Assembly (NCBI GenBank): GCA_949299545.1
Contig: CASGAM010000008.1
Location: 1 to 64,000 of the forward strand
Direction of reading: 5' to 3'
Length of the DNA: 64,000 nt
Source: an uncultured Prevotellaceae bacterium
GTDB taxonomy: Bacteria > Bacteroidota > Bacteroidia > Bacteroidales > Bacteroidaceae
The notes beneath the pieces were generated by a model that was not told the DNA's origin, did not search any database, and was given only the letters and a program-made list of their open reading frames with translations. The first letter of the stretch is position 1. Every line of letters starts with the position of its first letter. Shown one piece after another: positions 6,236 through 60,783 of the stretch. A program made the translations under genes and the position numbers.

Positions 6236-6850
6236 TCAATCCGTCTCTTGGTCGAAAAGTTCAAGTTGTCTGTTACCGATAAGATTGAACGAAAGCCGAT
6301 GGTAAGGAGTGATGCCATAATGGAGGATGGCTTGGCGATGCGTTCTGGCCGGGTAGCCTTTGTTGGCATTCCATCCGTATTGCGGATACTCGCTGTGAAT
6401 TTGTTTCATGTAGTCATCCCGGTATGTTTTGGCCAGTATGGATGCGGCAGCAATGCTCATATATTTCCCATCGCCTTTGATGATGGTGGAATGTGGCAGG
6501 TCGCGATAAGGTTTGAAGCGGTTGCCGTCAATCAATAATGCTTCAGGACGTACCTTTAATTGGTCTAATGCCCGGTGCATGGCCAGGAAAGAGGCATTTA
6601 GGATATTGATTTCGTCTATTTCTGACGGACTGACGATGCCTATGGCCCAATCAACGGCATCATGCTCGATTTCTGCGCGCAACAGATAGCGTTTCTTTTC
6701 GCTGAGTTGTTTGGAGTCGTTGAGTTGTTCGTTCCGATAGTCCTTCGGCAGAATAACGGCAGCCGCATAGACGGGACCGGCTAAACAGCCGCGTCCGGCC
6801 TCGTCGCAACCGGCTTCAATCAGTGAGGGGTCAAGAAAAGGAAGGAGCAT
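6236..6850 (-). CDS. rnhB: Ribonuclease HII
   Basis: RNase HII cleaves RNA in RNA-DNA hybrids and removes single ribonucleotides misincorporated into DNA. The metal-binding motif [18 protein letters not shown] sits at residues 14-31, the second acidic site near LLIDGNRF around residue 100, and the [18 protein letters not shown] block near 125. The length (204 residues) is typical. It is upstream of gpmI on the same strand, separated by about 110 bp that contain the gpmI promoter. A long gene-free region follows on its 5' side. Confidence 0.97.
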
Positions 6851-7514
6851 AAGTTATATTTGATATTGAACGGATTATATTTAACAATGGCTTTATTGGA
6901 TTTTATATGTACGAAGATACGAAATAAATTTATATTTTGTGGGACTTTCATCATTGAATTTGATGAATCGAGTCGTATGGTTTTATGAACAAGTCATGTC
7001 CGATGAAAGATGTGCTATATGTATATTTTGCGAAAAAACTTTATATTTTTACTGTCCGCAGTTATAATGAAAATTGCGAGCGGTTGCAGCAAAATTTGCG
7101 ACCTGTCGCTTTCTGAAGGCGACAAGTCGTGTTGTAGAAGCGACCTGTCGCTGTGCAACGTATGACAAATGCTGCTTATTGAGTTTCCGACAGTGGGACG
7201 GAAGGTATATAACTTCTGTTTTTTGATGTTTTGGTTTTCAACGGATTATAAAAATTGAGAGGAACAAAGGCAGCTATGAAAAATATGTAGTGGCTGGATA
7301 GATAAGTACTTCTCTGTTGCTATCTGTTGAATTGAACAATCTTTACTTTCTCTGTAAGAAAGGTAGGCATTGATGCCTGTTTGTTTATGAAGTGAGCCTG
7401 TCGCGTCTTTTATATGGCCTCGGTTTGCATTGAATTAATCGAATTTTATTATGGATGTCATTACGGTGAAATTTTCAGCTGGTATTTTTGTTTCAGAACT
7501 TAAAATTTAGAATA
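6851..7514. other. Gene-free AT-rich region
   Basis: No credible gene was found in about 660 bp between rnhB and the HicB-like gene. It should hold the rnhB promoter on the minus strand and contains copy 1 of the GCGACCTGTCGC repeat (7076-7151). Nothing else stands out. Confidence 0.6.
7076..7151. repeat. Dispersed GCGACCTGTCGC repeat, copy 1
   Basis: It starts with the module GCGAGCGGTTGCAGCAAAA, followed by the 12-base palindrome GCGACCTGTCGC at 7098-7109, a degenerate version at 7119-7129 and another exact copy at 7140-7151. The order of modules matches copy 4 near 60.5 kb. It is the most degenerate of the three long copies, since the two outer palindromes are not embedded in a long perfect inverted repeat. 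Confidence 0.85.
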
Positions 7515-7694
7515 ATGGAAATCTTTGAGAATTACTGTATTGAACAAACGGAGGAGGGTTGTTTTTTTGCTTATCTTCCACATGATCCAGGTTGTTATGC
7601 TTATGGGGAAACAAGAGAAGAAGCATGTGAAGAACTAAGTAACTTAACGTGTGAGCAAGGAATAGATTTGCATGCATTGACTGAATGGTCCTGA
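7515..7694 (+). CDS. Orphan HicB-like small protein
   Basis: This 59-residue protein starts MEIFENYCIEQTEEG and contains FAYLPHDPGCYAYGETREEACEEL. It resembles the HicB antitoxin fold, in which a partial RNase-H-like domain carries a PDLPGCxxxGxTxEEA pattern. It lacks the C-terminal DNA-binding domain of full HicB, and no HicA-like toxin frame is visible on either side. It may be a solitary HicB-related protein or a degraded toxin-antitoxin remnant. The ATG at 7515 was preferred over an upstream TTG. Gene-poor AT-rich DNA surrounds it. Confidence 0.55.
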   Translation: MEIFENYCIEQTEEGCFFAYLPHDPGCYAYGETREEACEELSNLTCEQGIDLHALTEWS

Positions 7695-8443
7695 TTATTA
7701 ATGTGAGTTGTTCCAGTATAAATATTTATATACTAATCCTGTTTTTATCAATAATATAGATGTTAAGATACGTTTTTTATGGAAAAATATTATATTCTGT
7801 AATAGGTGTAATCAGATCTTACAATAAGTTGTCAAGCTAACGAAGCCCTGCGTGTTCCATATTGCAGGCCTTTTTGAGTTAGTCGTTAAGGGCTTCGTTG
7901 TGTGCCTTTGTCAGACCTTCGCCTGTTTTCTGATAACTCGGTTGTAAGACAGATGGAAGGAAAATCCTTGTGCCTATGCTATCATATAATTATATATGGT
8001 GACTTAAGATTTTAATAACGTATGGCATGAAAGGGTGCGAGAATGATTCTTTTATTAATAGCAAATGTTTTGTTTAACACTTGCAGAGTTCTTTAGAGAC
8101 GTATAAATATATGCCGAAAAATGTATTGTGTCATTTTAATGTAATGGTCATTGCGTTTATGAATTTTTTTCTCAAAAAAGAACTGCAAACACAGTATGTT
8201 GACATTTTTTTTGTATTTTTGTATTTGTATTAATGTAAAATATTCCAAGAAGTTGAAAATAACAAATCATTATACACATCTCTAAGATGGGAATGTAGAA
8301 AGTGGATATGAGGTAGCTATACAGTCATGTTCCATAGAAATATATGTGATTATTGAAAATAGAATTTAGATAACAGTGTTGAGCAGAACGGGATATGAGA
8401 AAAGCGATTTTATGCAGGGATGTATTATGCAGTTGCAAGGAGC
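7695..8443. other. Gene-free AT-rich region
   Basis: About 750 bp hold no convincing gene. An 11-bp inverted repeat (AACGAAGCCCT at 7839-7849 and its complement at 7889-7899) flanks about 40 bp and could be a transcript end or a remnant. Around 8200-8230 the DNA is strongly T-rich and could hold a promoter for the membrane genes that follow. This is the only gap of this size without a GCGACCTGTCGC repeat. Confidence 0.5.
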
Positions 8444-8560
8444 ATGACAAAGGTGGTTCTATTCCTTTTCATATTTTTCTTCATCTCTGTGGGGGCGAGC
8501 TATTATCGCGTGTCAGCTCGGGCTTTTATCGCAAATAATTATATAACAGGACTACTATGA
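8444..8560 (+). CDS. Putative 38-residue membrane peptide
   Basis: The frame encodes MTKVVLFLFIFFFISVGAS followed by a short polar tail ending NNYITGLL. The first 18 residues form one clear hydrophobic helix with a basic residue before it and an Arg-containing tail after it. Its TGA stop overlaps the ATG of the next membrane gene (ATGA at 8557-8560), the usual arrangement for translational coupling. No family is recognised. The short length means chance cannot be excluded, but the ATGA overlap and the clean hydrophobic helix argue for a real gene. Confidence 0.5.
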   Translation: MTKVVLFLFIFFFISVGASYYRVSARAFIANNYITGLL

Positions 8561-30777: not shown

Positions 30778-32433
30778 TTATTTTTGGGGCTTTAAAAGTT
30801 TGGCGTATTCTGCGGGGTTGGCCAAAAGTTCTGTAGCTGCTTTCACGTCATTGTCGTGTCCGGCCTGCTGGAGGAGGGCCCCTCGCCGGTAGTAATACCT
30901 GCTGACGATGTCATTCTCGATAAAAGGCTTTATGTCTTCCTTGAAGCGCATCATGTCGGCGGCTGTATCGCCGGACATCTTTTTTTGCAGGGCTTCAAAC
31001 TCAGCTTCAGCTCCTTCAAAACATCCTTCAAAGCGGGCGGTTTGTTTCAGCAGGTTCATCACGTCTTCTGTGCGCCGTTTGTATTTGAAACCGCTTTCTT
31101 CTACCATTTTGACAAAGTCGGCATAGTCTTCGTCAGAAAGGCTAAATTCGCCGGCAGGTGCTATGGTTGGATGTTCCGAAGCGTATTTGCATACGTATTC
31201 CAATGTAACGTCGCTGGCGACAATGTCGTAAACTAATGTCGGCAGGCTGTCTTCCGGTGTCACCACATCCGGTTTTATGCCGCCGCCGTCCCTTACGGGC
31301 CGGCCGGCTGCCGTGGAAAATTCGTGTGTCAGACTGTCGGGAACCGTGCCAACAGAACCGTCGGCGTTCAGATGACGGTAGTCATAGGCTTGGATGCACC
31401 GTCCGCTTGGGATATAGTAGCGGCTGGTAGTTACTTTCAGGCTGCCGTGATAAGGTACTTCCCGTGGAATCTGCACAAGTCCCTTTCCATAAGTTCTGCT
31501 GCCCATGATTACGGCACGGTCCATGTCTTGTAATGCGCCGGAAACGATTTCCGCGGATGAAGCGGTACCGCCGTTGACAAGTACCACTAAGGGTATTGTG
31601 GCGTCTAAAGGTTCTTTTGTTGTGTGGTATTCGGCGTTGACAGAAGCCAACTTGCCTTTGGTATATACAACTTTTTGACCCTTGGGAACAAAAAGGTTGA
31701 CAATTTCCACCGCTTCGCTGAGCAATCCGCCAGGGTTGCCGCGCATGTCTAATATCAGTGAGCGTGCGCCTTGTTCCTTCAGTTCGATGATAGCCCGGCG
31801 CACATCGCGTGAACAGTTCTCAGTGAAACGGTCAAAATAGATATAACCTACTTCATCGTTCAGTTTGCCGTAATAGGGGACAGGGGGGACTGAAATGTTG
31901 CGGCGCGTGATTTTGAAGGTCAGGGGGGCGGTTTCACCGGAACGTTTGATCCTTATTTCAAACGATGTGCCGGCGTCGCCTCGCAGCATTTTGCTGACTT
32001 CCGTCACATTTTTGCCTTTCACGTCCACACCGTCAATGTCCAGGATGATGTCGCCTGCCTTGATTCCGGCTTCTGCCGCCGGACTGTCTTCCCATGGCTC
32101 TACCATCATCACGCGGTCTTCTTTCTTGTAATAGCGTATGATGGAACCCACGCCGGCATATTTGCCTGTTGTCATTTCGCGCAACTCGCCCATATCGTTT
32201 TCCGGGTAATATTCCGTGAAAGGGTCTACTTGTCGCAACATGCCGTCAATGGCCCATCCGATGACAGTGTCGGCTGAGAGTGAGTCCACATAGAACAAGT
32301 CAAGCTGCTTGTATATGTCATTGAAGATTTCCAGGTTTTTGGATATCTCGAAATTATGACTGATGTCTTTTTGTGCGTGCAAGCCGCCTGTTCCCAACAG
32401 GAGACAGCCAACGATAGATACAAACTTTTTCAT
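30778..32433 (-). CDS. S41-family carboxyl-terminal processing protease
   Basis: CtpA-like proteases cleave exported proteins near their C-terminus. A signal peptide precedes a DUF-like helical region, a PDZ domain (PWEDSPAAEAGIKAGDIILDI near residue 120), and the tail-specific protease core with GGTASSAEIVSGALQD near 290 (catalytic Ser) and MGSRTYGKGLVQIP near 315 (catalytic Lys). A C-terminal extension of about 150 residues follows. It is the first gene of a unit with the small membrane protein and its promoter box sits only four bases before the ATG. Confidence 0.93.
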   Translation of the reverse strand: MKKFVSIVGCLLLGTGGLHAQKDISHNFEISKNLEIFNDIYKQLDLFYVDSLSADTVIGWAIDGMLRQVDPFTEYYPENDMGELREMTTGKYAGVGSIIRYYKKEDRVMMVEPWEDSPAAEAGIKAGDIILDIDGVDVKGKNVTEVSKMLRGDAGTSFEIRIKRSGETAPLTFKITRRNISVPPVPYYGKLNDEVGYIYFDRFTENCSRDVRRAIIELKEQGARSLILDMRGNPGGLLSEAVEIVNLFVPKGQKVVYTKGKLASVNAEYHTTKEPLDATIPLVVLVNGGTASSAEIVSGALQDMDRAVIMGSRTYGKGLVQIPREVPYHGSLKVTTSRYYIPSGRCIQAYDYRHLNADGSVGTVPDSLTHEFSTAAGRPVRDGGGIKPDVVTPEDSLPTLVYDIVASDVTLEYVCKYASEHPTIAPAGEFSLSDEDYADFVKMVEESGFKYKRRTEDVMNLLKQTARFEGCFEGAEAEFEALQKKMSGDTAADMMRFKEDIKPFIENDIVSRYYYRRGALLQQAGHDNDVKAATELLANPAEYAKLLKPQK

Positions 32434-32437
32434 GACG

Positions 32438-32445
32438 CAAATTTA
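32438..32445 (-). promoter_or_regulatory. Bacteroidota-type -7 box (S41 protease), nearly leaderless
   Basis: On the minus strand TAAATTTG is followed by CGTC and then the ATG at 32433. Transcription from this box would start at or next to the start codon, so the mRNA could be leaderless. Confidence 0.5.
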
Positions 32446-32536
32446 CGTAAATTCATCATATATCAGCCATGTTACAGTCATTCTCTTCGCCAGACTTATG
32501 TATTTTTTACATTACTGTGCTTTTTTTTAGCCAATC

Positions 32537-32569
32537 TGTTGCACATTTAAAAAATAAGCACTACTTTTG
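32537..32569 (+). promoter_or_regulatory. Bacteroidota-type promoter of the tRNA-Asn pair
   Basis: TTG at 32539-32541 is followed after 20 bp by TACTTTTG (32562-32569), 36 bp before the first tRNA. Spacing fits the consensus. Confidence 0.6.
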
Positions 32570-32605
32570 CAACGCAAATGAAAAGAACAAGTTTCTAAAA
32601 GTTCT

Positions 32606-32679
32606 GCTTCAGTAGCTCAGTTGGTTAGAGCACCTGACTGTTAATCAGGGGGTCGTTGGTTCAAGCCCATCCTGAAGCG
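32606..32679 (+). tRNA. tRNA-Asn (GTT), first copy
   Basis: A 74-base cloverleaf with acceptor arms GCTTCAG and CTGAAGC, D-arm GCTCAGTTGGTTAGAGC, anticodon stem CCTGA/TCAGG and loop CTGTTAA (anticodon GTT). The T-arm reads GTTGG-TTCAAGC-CCATC with one mismatch. A CCA end is encoded at 32680-32682. A second identical copy follows after 24 bp. Confidence 0.95.
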
Positions 32680-32703
32680 CCAAGTTCTTTTTATCATTGC
32701 ATT

Positions 32704-32777
32704 GCTTCAGTAGCTCAGTTGGTTAGAGCACCTGACTGTTAATCAGGGGGTCGTTGGTTCAAGCCCATCCTGAAGCG
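32704..32777 (+). tRNA. tRNA-Asn (GTT), second copy
   Basis: The 74 bases are identical to the first copy, including the T-arm mismatch. The CCA end is not encoded here (the next bases are CAA), so it must be added after transcription. A terminator follows three bases later. Confidence 0.95.
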
Positions 32778-32779
32778 CA

Positions 32780-32817
32780 AGAAAGGCCGTGTGGAGACAT
32801 GCGGTCTTTCTTTTTTT
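32780..32817 (+). terminator. Intrinsic terminator of the tRNA-Asn pair
   Basis: Arms AGAAAGGCCG (32780-32789) and CGGTCTTTCT (32802-32811) pair with one G-T wobble, followed by a run of seven T. It begins immediately after the second tRNA. Confidence 0.85.
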
Positions 32818-33300
32818 ATGAGGCTCTGTCAGATATTTTTATGATATGTCGCATCGCCTGTTTTTGTGAATTTGAGCCGGATTCTTGGCCATGTCGGATG
32901 CTTTTTGGGTTTTCCCCCGTACATTGTTATGGCAAAATATGTTTTTGGGCCTCTTGACTGTAATAGATAGGAATACATTATGTTACAGATGGTTACGCTC
33001 AACTGTTTTTACGTTTGGACTGGTGTTTTTTCGCATTGCTCTTTCGATGGCGTAAACAGTGTACCGACCTGCTGAAATTTGTAGCGCTTACAATAAAATT
33101 TGCGACCTGTCGCTTCTACAACACGACCTGTCGCCTTGCAGAAGCGACAGGTCGCAAATTCGGCCGCAATTTCAGCAGATTCATTTGCTTCTGTTTTGTC
33201 AGTAAAATTCAAAATTACAGATGGATGTTATGTTACTTCCCATTGTAATGTCAAGTGAAATCTGCGTTGGTTATAATTTGTCCGATACCGGCCGGCAGAT
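32818..33300. other. Gene-free region between tRNA-Asn and pnp
   Basis: No gene is supported. Copy 2 of the GCGACCTGTCGC repeat lies inside (33071-33178), and the pnp terminator begins at 33301. Short frames here are AT-rich and unlike any family. Confidence 0.55.
33071..33178. repeat. Dispersed GCGACCTGTCGC repeat, copy 2
   Basis: The core is a 21-bp perfect inverted repeat, 33097-33117 and 33140-33160, with arms that contain GCGACCTGTCGC. Between the arms there is another near copy (CGACCTGTCGC at 33124-33134). An outer pair, GCTGAAATT at 33071-33079 and its complement at 33170-33178, adds a second stem layer. The whole can fold into one long hairpin on either strand. Confidence 0.9.
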
Positions 33301-33341
33301 AAAAAAAAGAAGAAGATACTTGCGGAAAGCATCTTCTTCTT
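33301..33341 (-). terminator. Intrinsic terminator of pnp
   Basis: On the minus strand arms AAGAAGAAGAT (33331-33341) and ATCTTCTTCTT (33307-33317) form an 11-bp stem with a 13-base loop, followed by a run of T. It lies 20 bp past the pnp stop. Confidence 0.8.
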
Positions 33342-33359
33342 ATATATAATGGGCAACTT

Positions 33360-35573
33360 TTATTCAGCGCTCTTCTGTTCGTCTTGTCGCGGACGACGTT
33401 CGCGGCGTTCGCGGCGCGCCGGCCGTTCGGTATAGCCTTCTGGTTTTTCCAGGAGGACGCGGCGTGAGAGTTTGAATTTACCCGTCTTCGGATCAATTTC
33501 CATCAGTTTGACTTGTATCTTGTCGCCTTCTTTGATACCGGCTTCTTCAACTGTTTCAAGGCGTTTCCAGTCTATTTCGGAAATGTGCAGCAAACCGTCG
33601 CGGCCGGGCATGAATTCTACGAATGCGCCGTAAGGCATTACGCTGCGTACGGTTCCTTCATATACTTCGCCCACTTCCGGGATGGCCACGATGTTTCTGA
33701 TTTTGGCAAGTGCGGCCGTGATGATGTCTTTGTTACCGCCTGATACCTGAACAACACCGACCCCGTCTGTTTCTTCGATGGTGATGGTTGCACCGGTTTC
33801 TTCTTGGATGCCTTGGATGATTTTTCCGCCCGGGCCGATGACAGCACCGATAAATTCTTTAGGTATGGTGATTTGCTCGATGCGGGGAACGTGCGGTTTC
33901 AACTCGGCGCGTGGTTCAGCCATGCACTCTGTGAGTTTTCCGAGGATGTATTCGCGTCCGGCTTTGGCCTGCATGAGTGCCTTTTCAAGGATTTCGTAGC
34001 TCAATCCGTCGCATTTAATATCCATCTGTGTGGCTGTCAGTCCGTCAATGGTACCGGTAGTCTTGAAGTCCATGTCGCCGAGGTGGTCTTCATCGCCGAG
34101 GATGTCAGACAGTACGGCATATTTTTCTTCACCCGGATTCTTGATGAGTCCCATTGCGATACCGCTGACCGGTTTTTTCATGGGGACGCCGGCGTCCATC
34201 AAGGCTAAAGTACCTGCGCAGACAGTTGCCATGGATGAAGAACCGTTAGACTCGAGTATGTCGGATACGACACGTACGGTGTAGGGGAAATCTTCCGGAA
34301 TCTGTCCTTTCAGGCCGCGCCATGCCAAGTGTCCGTGACCGATTTCGCGTCGGCCGACGCCACGTTGTGCTTTTGCTTCGCCGGTAGAGAACGGCGGGAA
34401 GTTGTAATGGAGCAGAAAACGCATTTTGCCTTGTTCGAGTACTTCGTCTACAATCTTCTCGTCGAGTTTGGTTCCTAATGTACATGTTGACAATGATTGG
34501 GTTTCACCACGTGTGAAGATGGCAGAACCGTGAGGGCCGGGCAGCGGGCTTACTTCACACCAGATGGGGCGGATGTCTGTCGTTGCGCGGCCGTCGAGGC
34601 GCTTGCCTTCGTCCAGAACGCAACGGCGCATGGCATCGCGCTCTACATCATGGTAATAGCGGTCGATGAGCGTGTTCTTTTCAGCCAGCTCGTCTTCAGA
34701 CATTTCTGGATGTGCCTCTGCATAAGCAGCCTTGAAGTTTTCACGTATTTCCATGAAAGCATCTTCGCGGGCATGCTTGTCGCGGTTGCCTTCGCGGGCA
34801 ATGTTGTAGGCCGGTTCGTAGCAAACCTTTTTGCATTCGGCCTTCAGTTCGTCATCGTTTATTTCATGGCAATATTCGCGCTTGACGTCTTTGCCTAACT
34901 CTTTGGAGAGTTCTTTTTGCAGGCGGCACATCGGTTTGATGGCTTCATGGGCAGCCTTCAATGCGTTGAGAAGGTCGATTTCTGATACTTCTTTCATCTC
35001 GCCTTCCACCATCATGATGTTCTCTTCAGTAGCGCCAACCATGATATCCATATCGGCGGTTTCGAGTTGTGCGAAAGTAGGGTTGATGACGTATTCACCG
35101 TTGATGCGTGCCACACGTACTTCGGAGATCGGTCCGTCGAAAGGAATATCTGAAACGGACAGGGCAGCCGAAGCGGCAAATCCGGCCAATGCGTCGGGCA
35201 TGTCAACGCCGTCGGCTGAATATAATATGACATTTACATAAACTTCTGCGTGGTAATTGTCGGGGAACAAGGGACGCAGTGCGCGGTCAACAAGGCGGCA
35301 TGTCAGGATTTCATTATCCGACGCCTTGCCTTCGCGTTTTGTAAATCCGCCGGGAAAACGTCCGGCAGCTGAAAATTTTTCTCTGTACTCTACCTGCAAA
35401 GGCATAAAATCTGTTCCGGGAACGGCATCTTTAGCGGCACAAACGGTGGCCAAGAGCATGGTGTTGCCCATAGAAAGCATCACGGCTCCATCGGCTTGTT
35501 TGGCCAGTTTCCCGGTTTCGATGCTGATGGTTCTCCCATCAGGCAATTCGACTGTCTTCTTAATTACGTTCAT
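33360..35573 (-). CDS. pnp: Polyribonucleotide nucleotidyltransferase (PNPase)
   Basis: PNPase degrades mRNA from the 3' end by phosphorolysis and belongs to the degradosome. Two RNase PH domains are present, with [20 protein letters not shown] near 74 and [19 protein letters not shown] near 480. The KH domain ([20 protein letters not shown]) and the S1 domain ([24 protein letters not shown]) end the protein, with a basic tail after residue 710. The ATG at 35573 gives [15 protein letters not shown], the usual start; the frame extends further to 35618, but the promoter box is only 33 bp upstream of 35573. Confidence 0.97.
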
Positions 35574-44943: not shown

Positions 44944-47049
<2,106 letters not shown>

Positions 47050-47058
47050 TTGTTTTTT

Positions 47059-47313
47059 TTATGCTAATTTGTTAACATGCATAGCAATTTTTGACTTTAA
47101 ATTAGCTGCCTTATTCTTATGAATAATGTTAACCTTTGCCAATTTGTCCAATATCTTTTGAACGCCCGGGAGCATTGCAACTGCTTCAGCCTTGTCCGTT
47201 GTAGCGCGGAGCTTGCGGACAGCATTACGCATGGTCTTTGCGTAGTATCTGTTATGGAGTCTTCTTTTCTCCTCCTGGCGGATTCTTTTTACTGATGATT
47301 TATGATTTGCCAT
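47059..47313 (-). CDS. rpsT: 30S ribosomal protein S20
   Basis: S20 binds 16S rRNA early in 30S assembly. The basic N-terminus [18 protein letters not shown] is followed by [20 protein letters not shown] and the C-terminal helix [24 protein letters not shown]. Length 84 is typical. The gene sits between tRNA-Glu and gyrB, with a strong terminator behind it. Confidence 0.97.
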
Positions 47314-47343
47314 CTCGCTTTTTAATAATTTCGTTTAACTTAG

Positions 47344-47415
47344 TAGTCCCTAGGAGAGTCGAACTCCTCTTTAGAGAATGAAAATCTCTCGTCCTAACCG
47401 ATAGACGAAGGGACC
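47344..47415 (-). tRNA. tRNA-Glu (TTC)
   Basis: On the minus strand the acceptor arms GGTCCCT and AGGGACT pair, the D-arm reads TCTATCGGTTAGGA, the anticodon stem AGAGA/TCTCT encloses TTTTCAT (anticodon TTC), and the T-arm is AGGAG-TTCGACT-CTCCT. The 3' CCA is not encoded. Length 72 bases. Confidence 0.95.
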
Positions 47416-47616
47416 AGCCTTAAAGCTTTCGCTTCGTGATTGAAAACCTTGTCGCGGTAAGTAATCGTGACTTGATTTTCGTTTGCGTTGCAAAGGTAGT
47501 GCTTTTCTGTTAATCTCCAAAATTTTTGAAGAGAAATTTATAGTAAATGTGTTTTTTTATTGGAAATAACCCTCATGAAAGTGGGAAACCTTATATATTT
47601 ACATTAAAAATATCGT

Positions 47617-48342
47617 ATGGTTGAACGTACACGGGGGGTTGTTTTGGGCTTAGTGAAATGTGGCGACCACACTACGGTGGTGGATGTATATACAGCGTCA
47701 CGTGGAAATGTTTCATTTTGGGTGAAGCAGCCGGCAGTGCGTAAAGGAAAGGCGGGGCAGACACGTTTTGCTCCTTTGGCTTTAGTTGAGATTGATTTTG
47801 AATATCGTCCTGCCGCATCTTTGCAGCGCATGAAGGTCCTGCAGAATTTTTATACATACAGCCAAATGCCGTATGATCCTTTAAAATCGGCTGTCGCTTT
47901 GTTCTTGTCGGAGTTTCTTTATAAGGTATTAAAAAATGAAACCCCTAATGAAGATCTTTTCTCCTATATCGTTAATTCGCTGCAATGGTTTGATGCGGCC
48001 GTTTCAGGGTATGCTAATTTTCATTTGGTGTTTATCACTCGCCTGACGCGTTTTTTGGGTTTTTATCCAAATGTCGGGGACTATGAGGCAGGCGATTATT
48101 TTGATATGCTCAATGCTTGTTTTGTGTCCCGGCAGCCCATGCATGCAGCTTTTCTTCGCCCTGATGAGGCTGCAACGATTCCGCTTTTCATGCGTATGAA
48201 TTATGATTCGATGCGTTTTTTTGCAATGAACCGTCAACAGCGGAACAGGTATATGCAGGTGCTGAATGACTATTATTGTCTGCATGTGCCAGATTTTCCT
48301 CATTTGAAGTCGCTTGATGTTTTAAGGGAAGTTTTTGACTGA
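47617..48342 (+). CDS. recO: DNA repair protein RecO
   Basis: RecO helps load RecA on SSB-coated DNA with RecR. The N-terminal OB fold begins MVERTRGVVLGLVKCGDHTTVV and continues through GNVSFWVKQP, followed by the helical domain with LLSEFLYKVLKNETPNEDLF-like sequence (here ALFLSEFLYKVLKNE). The cysteine zinc finger of many RecO proteins is absent; only isolated cysteines occur in the C-terminal part. Length 241 is normal for the group. It reads toward the AraC-type gene. Confidence 0.88.
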   Translation: MVERTRGVVLGLVKCGDHTTVVDVYTASRGNVSFWVKQPAVRKGKAGQTRFAPLALVEIDFEYRPAASLQRMKVLQNFYTYSQMPYDPLKSAVALFLSEFLYKVLKNETPNEDLFSYIVNSLQWFDAAVSGYANFHLVFITRLTRFLGFYPNVGDYEAGDYFDMLNACFVSRQPMHAAFLRPDEAATIPLFMRMNYDSMRFFAMNRQQRNRYMQVLNDYYCLHVPDFPHLKSLDVLREVFD

Positions 48343-49503: not shown

Positions 49504-49948
49504 GTCTTATATTTTTCTTTTCCATTCTTAGTGGTTGTTTTTTTTGAGGATGAATTTACGGTGCCATGGGCTTGTTTGCGCCTTTGTTCAGGCCGTCCGT
49601 AAAGCGACAGGTCGCAGCTTTTGTTGCGACCGCTTGCAATTTTTGCTGCGACCGCTTGCATTTTTGGCAGAGAACAATACTGATCAAACCAGCATAAGAC
49701 GGCTTTTGTAAGTCGGTGATTTATAGATATCTATGTATCCCATGAATGAGCGAAGCCCTCCTTTAAGAAACGGTGTGTTGGCTATACCTGATTCAAATAT
49801 GCGTATAAGAGCGGACCGATATAAAAATTGAGTTACAAATGTTCGGGCTGAAACTTATGCAGGCGACAATCTTCAATGGTTATGAAATATTTTTTAATGA
49901 AAAGTGAATATTTTTATGATTTTTGGCAGATGGTTTCAGATAAAACTA
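49504..49948. other. Gene-free region between the AraC-type gene and the acyl-CoA ligase
   Basis: About 450 bp without a gene. It contains copy 3 of the GCGACCTGTCGC repeat (49604-49664). The ligase promoter box lies at the end. Confidence 0.55.
49604..49664. repeat. Dispersed GCGACCTGTCGC repeat, copy 3 (reverse, partial)
   Basis: GCGACAGGTCGC at 49604-49615 is followed by two tandem units of about 20 bases, TTGCGACCGCTTGCAATTTT and CTGCGACCGCTTGCATTTTT (49624-49664). The units are the complement of the GCAAGCGGTTG module of copies 1 and 4, so this copy is in the opposite orientation and lacks the second palindrome arm. Confidence 0.8.
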
Positions 49949-60228: not shown

Positions 60229-60783
60229 TTACCTTGACGTAGGTTCGGGACCAGTTGGAAACTTACCCATAAAAGTGTAAAACCGTTCGTGTCCGATTCA
60301 AACCGTCAAAAGATAATCGCAATATTCCCGACTGCAGCTATATCATATTACACGGTGTTTTGACGAAAAAACCTTCACTCCTTCATTTCTTATATAAATA
60401 TCTGTAAATATGTATATTATAGTTGAATGCTTATGCTATTTCTCTTTCACCGTTCCTGGCTGGAATTGCAAGCGGTTGTAGCAAAAATTGCGACCTGTCG
60501 CTTCTACAACACGACCTGTCGCCTTGTAGAAGCGACAGGTCGCATTGAAAACACCTCGTACCGGCTCGGGTGAAGATATCGATGAAACGTTCAGTAGCGA
60601 AGTCCTTCATCCGTAACATTCAGATTCATAGACTCCTGTATTAAAGGTGAAGGCGTGAAGCCTTTTTACGATAAGGTTACTGTATAGGTAAAGGATGCTT
60701 CTGCAAGTTTTTATCCGTTAATTCTCAGTCGATGAACGGAAAAATCAGGAATGCCATGATTTCTATTTTTAATGAGAGCTTAT
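60229..60783. other. Gene-free region upstream of the GH2 gene
   Basis: No gene is supported between the candidate operator and the end of the second HTCS gene. Copy 4 of the GCGACCTGTCGC repeat lies inside (60468-60544). Confidence 0.55.
60468..60544. repeat. Dispersed GCGACCTGTCGC repeat, copy 4
   Basis: The module GCAAGCGGTTGTAGCAAAAA is followed by a 21-bp perfect inverted repeat (60489-60509 and 60524-60544), whose arms contain GCGACCTGTCGC, and by a further near copy CGACCTGTCGC at 60512-60522 in the loop. The structure is the same as in copy 2, and the left module is the same as in copy 1. Confidence 0.9.

Follow-up and report, generated by a model that had tools for sequence, protein, structure and literature searches.

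What kind of element recurs in the long intergenic gaps of a 64,000-nucleotide stretch of DNA (the window, meaning the whole stretch that was analyzed)? The original prediction described four related palindromic sequences built on the 12-mer GCGACCTGTCGC and named three candidates: a REP-like element moved by a RAYT transposase, a protein-binding site for chromosome organization, or a structured RNA. All four reported places contain GCGACCTGTCGC matches, and the window holds nine matches with at most one mismatch versus 0.15 expected by shuffling. At each place, 12-bp words form a short array:

7076..7151, unstranded: array copy 1, words at 7076, 7098, 7119 and 7140 (spacing 22-21-21)
33080..33155, unstranded: array copy 2, a degenerate word at about 33080 and clear words at 33102, 33123 and 33144 (21-21)
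49604..49659, unstranded: array copy 3, only three words, at 49604, 49626 and 49648 (22-22)
60468..60543, unstranded: array copy 4, words at 60468, 60490, 60511 and 60532 (22-21-21)

The first word of copy 2 was read by eye and failed the word-chain scan described below. Perfect 21-bp inverted repeats had been reported for copies 2 and 4; those of copy 4 are perfect, but in copy 2 the arms have a single mismatch (ACAA vs GCAA). The sequence GCAAGCGGTTG, reported as a module beside the core, is not separate from it and represents another (second) class of the 12-bp word. As stated originally, the window has five gaps of at least 450 bp between open reading frames (ORFs) of at least 100 amino acids, and none of the four copies overlaps an ORF of at least 80 amino acids. 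The gaps at 32433-33360 and 47001-47617 contain tRNAs, among them tandem genes with identical scores (32606-32679 and 32704-32777) just upstream of copy 2. A small plus-strand ORF of 59 amino acids (7488/7515-7694) lies inside the gap at 6850-8557; judging by its motif it resembles a solitary HicB-type antitoxin, but a Pfam search of 7515-7694 returned no match.

The family extends throughout the draft genome to which the window belongs (G000; 2,318,525 bases [2.32 Mb] in 41 contigs, 79% complete). Its proteins and promoter-like sequences suggest a member of Bacteroidales. GCGACCTGTCGC occurs there in 98 exact copies, while the reversed-pattern control occurs in none, placing the 12-mer far above chance. 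In 17 congeners it was found zero to two times each, nine in total, with eight for the control. Likewise, a 22-mer containing the second-class word (up to three mismatches) matched 60 times in G000 and once in the other 17 genomes. A 20-mer of core plus linker, also with up to three mismatches, matched 89 times in G000; among the family's 398 other genomes, 48 had one or two matches, about as many as for the reversed control, and an array was absent from all seven loci read out of ten. No match was obtained when viral contigs were scanned with one exact 20-mer or when plasmid and phage records were searched with the 108-bp copy 2. Scanning genome contigs with the exact 20-mer gave two single matches, in a deltaproteobacterial metagenome-assembled genome and in Roseithermus (surroundings unread). 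No description of a family of four-word arrays was found among the open PMC papers listed by the searches. ACAAGCGGTC resembles the Actinobacillus-type uptake signal, a similarity put down to chance. The genome carries about eighty short, mostly intergenic elements, and the dispersed intergenic palindromic family is both real and larger than first reported.

To define the arrays, stretches around the matches were fetched and words of the form GCRASCKSTYGC were chained, with spacings of 20 to 23 bp allowed. This gave 91 chains; once 13 single words had been dropped, 78 elements of two or more words remained. Four words were present in 61 elements, three in 8, two in 8 and five in 1. Every one of the 211 word spacings was 21 bp (97) or 22 bp (114); 20 and 23 did not occur. 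The words are thus near-palindromes of 12 bp set two helical turns apart in mixed orientation. The linkers that join them measure 9 nt in the TTCTACAAC type and 10 nt in the AGCAAAATTT type. Two layouts predominate, 22-21-22 and 22-21-21 plus the mirror image of the latter; the symmetry center differs between the two, and the phase is kept. Identity was 0.86 in words, 0.78 in linkers and 0.51 in flanks, with a palindromy of 4.33 of 6; the search pattern itself contributes to these values, which makes them partly circular. Words were hardly closer within arrays than between arrays (2.26 versus 2.35 mismatches).

The inventory is incomplete, so that 78 is a lower bound; on later contigs, words of the second class were picked up by the 22-mer search alone. 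One pair of adjacent second-class words at 22 bp (C37:106699-106742, L089) was missed by the chain scan and was used only as a position in the gap analysis. Contigs C9 and C24 start with the same 141 bp, 100% identical and with an array inside, and then diverge (L020 and L039). The entries C9:15 and C24:15 may therefore be one element rather than two, although it is probable that the assembly was interrupted here by two identical copies.

Gene context was scored with ORFs of at least 120 amino acids, by which 70 of the 78 elements could be classified: 26 lie between convergent genes, 40 between tandem genes and 4 between divergent genes, compared with 13, 116 and 31, respectively, for 160 other adjacent ORF pairs at the same loci. 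Five elements overlap an ORF, and three lie at edges. With ORFs of at least 150 amino acids, the counts were 25 convergent, 40 tandem and 6 divergent, with 3 overlapping and 4 at edges; with at least 80 amino acids they were 21, 27 and 2, while 26 elements overlapped ORFs, most of which were short, and 2 lay at edges. The arrays are mostly intergenic, rare in divergent gaps and enriched in convergent gaps.

Arrays of the same geometry, built mostly from other words, are found in sister species. In place of a plain pair-distance test, which was too noisy, an array scan looked for three or more similar 12-mers at constant spacing in samples of 30 to 180 kb from 15 of the 17 congeners. At spacings of 21/22 bp there were 34 arrays in 12 of the 15 samples, compared with zero to five arrays in each of the columns from 16/17 to 19/20 and from 24/25 to 30/31. 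The adjoining columns 20/21, 22/23 and 23/24 gave 12, 33 and 12 arrays, with spacings largely in common with the 21/22 column. At the strict threshold, all four words were kept in only 4 of the 34 arrays, and in none of the window's own arrays. A few of the congener arrays (e.g., L226:286) resemble coding or low-complexity repeats. A 50-kb stretch of E. coli gave no arrays at spacings of 16 to 30 bp.

The words themselves differ. In G008 the word is CTTTGCGGCAAG at a spacing of 22 bp (some 21); when loci were re-counted with up to four mismatches, six of eight had exactly four words, and of the others L192 had three and L193 an irregular longer run. G012 alternates GTACTCGAGTAC with CTTTGCGGCAAG in arrays of two or three words, G014 uses TCAAGCGATTCA, which has a different center, G011 uses CTTGCGCAAG, and other congeners have further words. 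Exact CTTTGCGGCAAG occurs 121 times in G008, 85 times in G012 and zero to three times in each of the other 16 genomes. An 18-mer from G014 (up to two mismatches) occurs 260 times there and zero to four times in each other genome; exact copies number two in G007 and one in G013. Array words are therefore mostly, not strictly, species specific. Another intergenic element, CTCCGCCTTGTAGGGGAG ... GGGCCTGAGGGG and relatives, seems common to three congeners:

L164:261, L165:308 and L170:7747 (G007), L191:12914 (G008), and L216 and L217 (G013): CTCCGCCTTGTAGGGGAG/GGGCCTGAGGGG element

Similar arrays occur in two of four other genera sampled at 100 kb per genome. G329 had five matches, four of them with GCGACGCGTCGC-like words; G019 had eight matches of various kinds; G236 had three, one of them array-like, with no peak at the 21/22 spacing; and G251 had no array match. 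A longer tandem array with a 22-bp unit like CCGGCAAGCACAACATTCCACT was seen in G019 (L255:15240-15400). There is no clear sharing of positions among species: in 16 of 67 congener rows, in which some elements are counted twice, a neighboring gene had a homolog close to an element of G000, which was judged not to be above a rough expectation made with no formal null. Around the PNPase gene, a looser threshold gave matches at 21/22 bp in 6 of 17 congener loci, with those of G005 and G011 array-like by eye, an anecdotal case.

Along the chromosome, the distances between elements are more even than random placement would give. Gaps were taken from pattern matches, with close matches merged (below 600 bp for G000 and G012, otherwise by eye), and near-identical close neighbors may be lost in draft assemblies. 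For the elements listed in G000, the 57 gaps average 24 kb, with a minimum of 7.7 kb and a CV of 0.46 versus 0.82 expected; none is below 5 kb, versus 8.2 expected. Leaving out copies found through their arms gave 52 gaps and a CV of 0.50 versus 0.81. Among the matches listed for G008, 45 gaps average 31 kb (minimum, 12.9 kb, or 11.2 kb if one weak extra match is included), with a CV of 0.48 versus 0.76 and no gap below 12 kb versus 9.7 expected. Among the matches listed for G014, 33 gaps average 15 kb (minimum, 5.2 kb), with a CV of 0.60 versus 0.73 and none below 5 kb versus 4.7 expected; this species is biased toward short gaps because its contigs are short and gaps were taken only among the matches listed. 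Seventeen of the G014 gaps fall between 8 and 11.2 kb versus 6.7 expected, more than hard-core models of 4 to 7 kb give, in a range picked after the data were seen. Among the matches listed for G012, 29 gaps have a CV of 0.85, versus 0.87 by chance, and a minimum of 6.3 kb, with none below 5 kb versus 3.7 expected (P = 0.01). Thus, no gap below 5 kb appears in the position lists of four species, and the CV is low in three of the four. A null in which copies were placed only in the intergenic gaps of the tiled window still put 16 to 17% of gaps below 5 kb.

The reading that we favor, tentatively, is that these are dispersed, probably mobile, non-coding elements, each built on a core of usually four phased candidate dimer-binding sites, with exclusion between copies. 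Each 12-bp word would be bound by a dimer of one sequence-specific candidate protein, and the four dimers would align along a single face of the double helix. Dispersal would be by a process resembling transposition, and an array already in place would discourage a further copy within several kilobases, a form of target immunity. Target immunity is known for Tn7, Mu and Tn3. The end arrays of Tn7 (bound by TnsB) and Mu (bound by MuA), transposons that show such immunity, also consist of repeated sites of about 22 bp; unlike the arrays described here, they sit at transposon ends. Because the scale of spacing differs by species, exclusion fits better than one fixed domain size. The turnover of word specificity between species is as expected if element and protein co-evolve.

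Ranked second, and rather unlikely in our estimate, is that the arrays are host sites for chromosome organization, bound by a nucleoid or segregation protein, kept at intervals, and marking or insulating domains; their words would change between species as the protein changes. The sites of MatP (matS), SlmA and Noc are 12- to 14-bp palindromes that are spread along the chromosome and bound by dimers; they stand singly and have a conserved sequence. The elements here resemble them as dispersed palindromes that are putative dimer sites and differ in forming phased arrays whose words change between species. Even spacing in several species, including the 8- to 11-kb mode in G014 (range post hoc), is consistent with such a role, as are the helical phasing, the four-word design and the presence of same-phase arrays in 12 of 15 congeners sampled. 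The mean gaps, however, differ among G000, G008 and G014 (24, 31 and 15 kb, for the gaps listed), which, together with the lack of clear position sharing (16/67 rows, no formal null), speaks against fixed host sites. In addition, copies have extra flanking homology, like mobile elements.

That homology is seen between copies at different places, with paired alignments of 269 columns at 90.7% identity, 398 at 75.4% and 353 at 77.6%; the second pairs copy 4 with a copy at C30:8874. Copy 4 also represents a long form, in which outer arms flank the array:

60372..60387, plus strand: outer arm to the left of copy 4, matching the CCTTCACTCCTTCACC motif with 2 mismatches
60646..60661, minus strand: outer arm to the right of copy 4, matching the CCTTCACTCCTTCACC motif with 2 mismatches

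With up to three mismatches to CCTTCACTCCTTCACC, at least one arm was present in 19 of the 78 elements and both were present in 15. With at most one mismatch, the motif occurs 28 times in G000; elsewhere in the genus, G006 and G016 have one match apiece and the remaining genomes none. Arm-first matches outside the list of 78 elements also had arrays, some of them degenerate, and at least one of 37 arm motifs with up to two mismatches (C37:131420) lies far from any array. Among these 37, conservation fades about 30 bp outside the motif. The element ends are not sharply defined, and no target-site duplication was visible by eye in 17 arm pairs. Flank inverted repeats that beat the best of 15 mismatched flank pairings were found in 13 of the 76 elements with both flanks; two of the 13 exceed their own null by only 2 points, and the one at C8:70427 is the array's own outer words. 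The outer arms of some long forms match each other much better than they match the arms of other copies (score, 148 versus at most 29). Binding sites alone cannot explain this likeness; it would also be expected from a structural role or from arm copying.

Long forms with inverted arms and the conserved CCTTCACTCCTTCACC motif would be expected of a MITE with an internal minisatellite, mobilized by an ordinary insertion-sequence transposase, with the even spacing a by-product of close-repeat loss or of assembly. The nearest described element is BrickBuilt, a MITE of Porphyromonas gingivalis with 1 to 22.8 copies of a 23-nt direct tandem repeat at 19 loci and a leader and tail flanking the repeats that are absent from some copies (PMC4596501). 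Species-limited, intergenic, multicopy elements of this type are thus known in a relative. The two families agree in being intergenic and multicopy, in their restriction to one species and its near kin, in a unit of about two helical turns and in flanking segments that some copies lack. Unlike BrickBuilt, the arrays here mostly have four words, in mixed orientation and at strictly two spacings (21 and 22 bp), at about 80 over-dispersed loci. Together with the lack of a visible target-site duplication in the 17 arm pairs and the reach of about 8 kb that close-repeat loss would need, these differences make a BrickBuilt-like MITE improbable.

Could the long hairpin itself be the working part, as a structured RNA, a terminator or a cruciform? 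The arrays fold well: against mononucleotide shuffles, the mean z scores were -7.7 and -7.0 for two layouts, with 15 arrays each. Enrichment in convergent gaps and the within-copy match of some outer arms are also consistent with such a role. Arm changes within the array, however, are uncompensated. For 29 distinct 22-21-22 arrays, arm complementarity was 24.31 of 34 within copies versus 24.40 of 34 with arms swapped between copies (P = 0.57), and in 24 arrays of the other layout the arms were slightly less complementary within a copy than when swapped. The symmetry of the array thus resides in the consensus and is not maintained copy by copy, so that a maintained hairpin in the array is not supported. 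The layouts 22-21-22 and 22-21-21, moreover, shift the symmetry center yet keep the phase, and at gathering scores Rfam reported only tRNAs in the window. These results weaken the RNA or cruciform interpretation, which we regard as very unlikely. Uncompensated arms combined with a strict two-turn phase point instead to sites read as double-stranded DNA.

REP or REPIN elements moved by a RAYT (TnpA-REP) transposase, another of the original candidates, would likewise be short, palindromic and extragenic, with high copy number and mixed orientation, as REPINs and BIMEs are (PMC3116915 and PMC2817692), but this is the least probable explanation, since no PF01797 match (E value, 0.001) was found in the 79%-complete G000, the same search serving as a control having found the domain in 5 of 14 genomes, and the copies are over-dispersed, unlike the REP doublets of P. 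fluorescens SBW25, for which random placement within extragenic space is reported (PMC3116915).

A mobile array of phased binding sites with exclusion between copies therefore ranks first and chromosome organization second. Extended homology between dispersed copies and expansion in individual species speak for mobility, and arms that vary independently are what binding sites, unlike a maintained hairpin, would give. Several observations argue against this reading. Neither a transposase, in searches for PF01797 and PF09299, nor a binding protein was found, though the search for Mu/Tn7-like transposases (Mu-transpos_C, PF09299), with no match in 18 genomes, is uninformative because its control was equally silent. 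The inverted-repeat arms are absent from most copies, as the arm motif counts show, and four words are not universal, given that 17 of the 78 elements differ, as do G012, G014 and the congeners. The CV in G012 is no lower than chance, some words are common to species (one in G008 and G012, and the G014 18-mer in G007 and G013), and words are hardly closer within arrays than between them. Of the three candidates proposed originally, a protein-binding site is the best supported, but a four-site, phased and apparently mobile array was not among them; that interpretation is thus partly supported overall.

It is possible, if doubtful, that these elements represent a previously undescribed chromosome-wide system, in which about four phased palindromes per locus recur quasi-regularly every 10 to 30 kb or so and the geometry is kept while the site sequence is mostly replaced, either as a self-spacing, immune mobile element or as a fast-evolving ruler. 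If so, a candidate DNA-binding protein would read the arrays, and its specificity would turn over like that of centromere or hotspot proteins. Two questions become testable with this family: by what means small non-coding elements keep their own copies sparse, and whether co-evolution with a binding protein can drive turnover of the site arrays on a chromosome. For finding the protein, a phased array of sites would be a ready bait.
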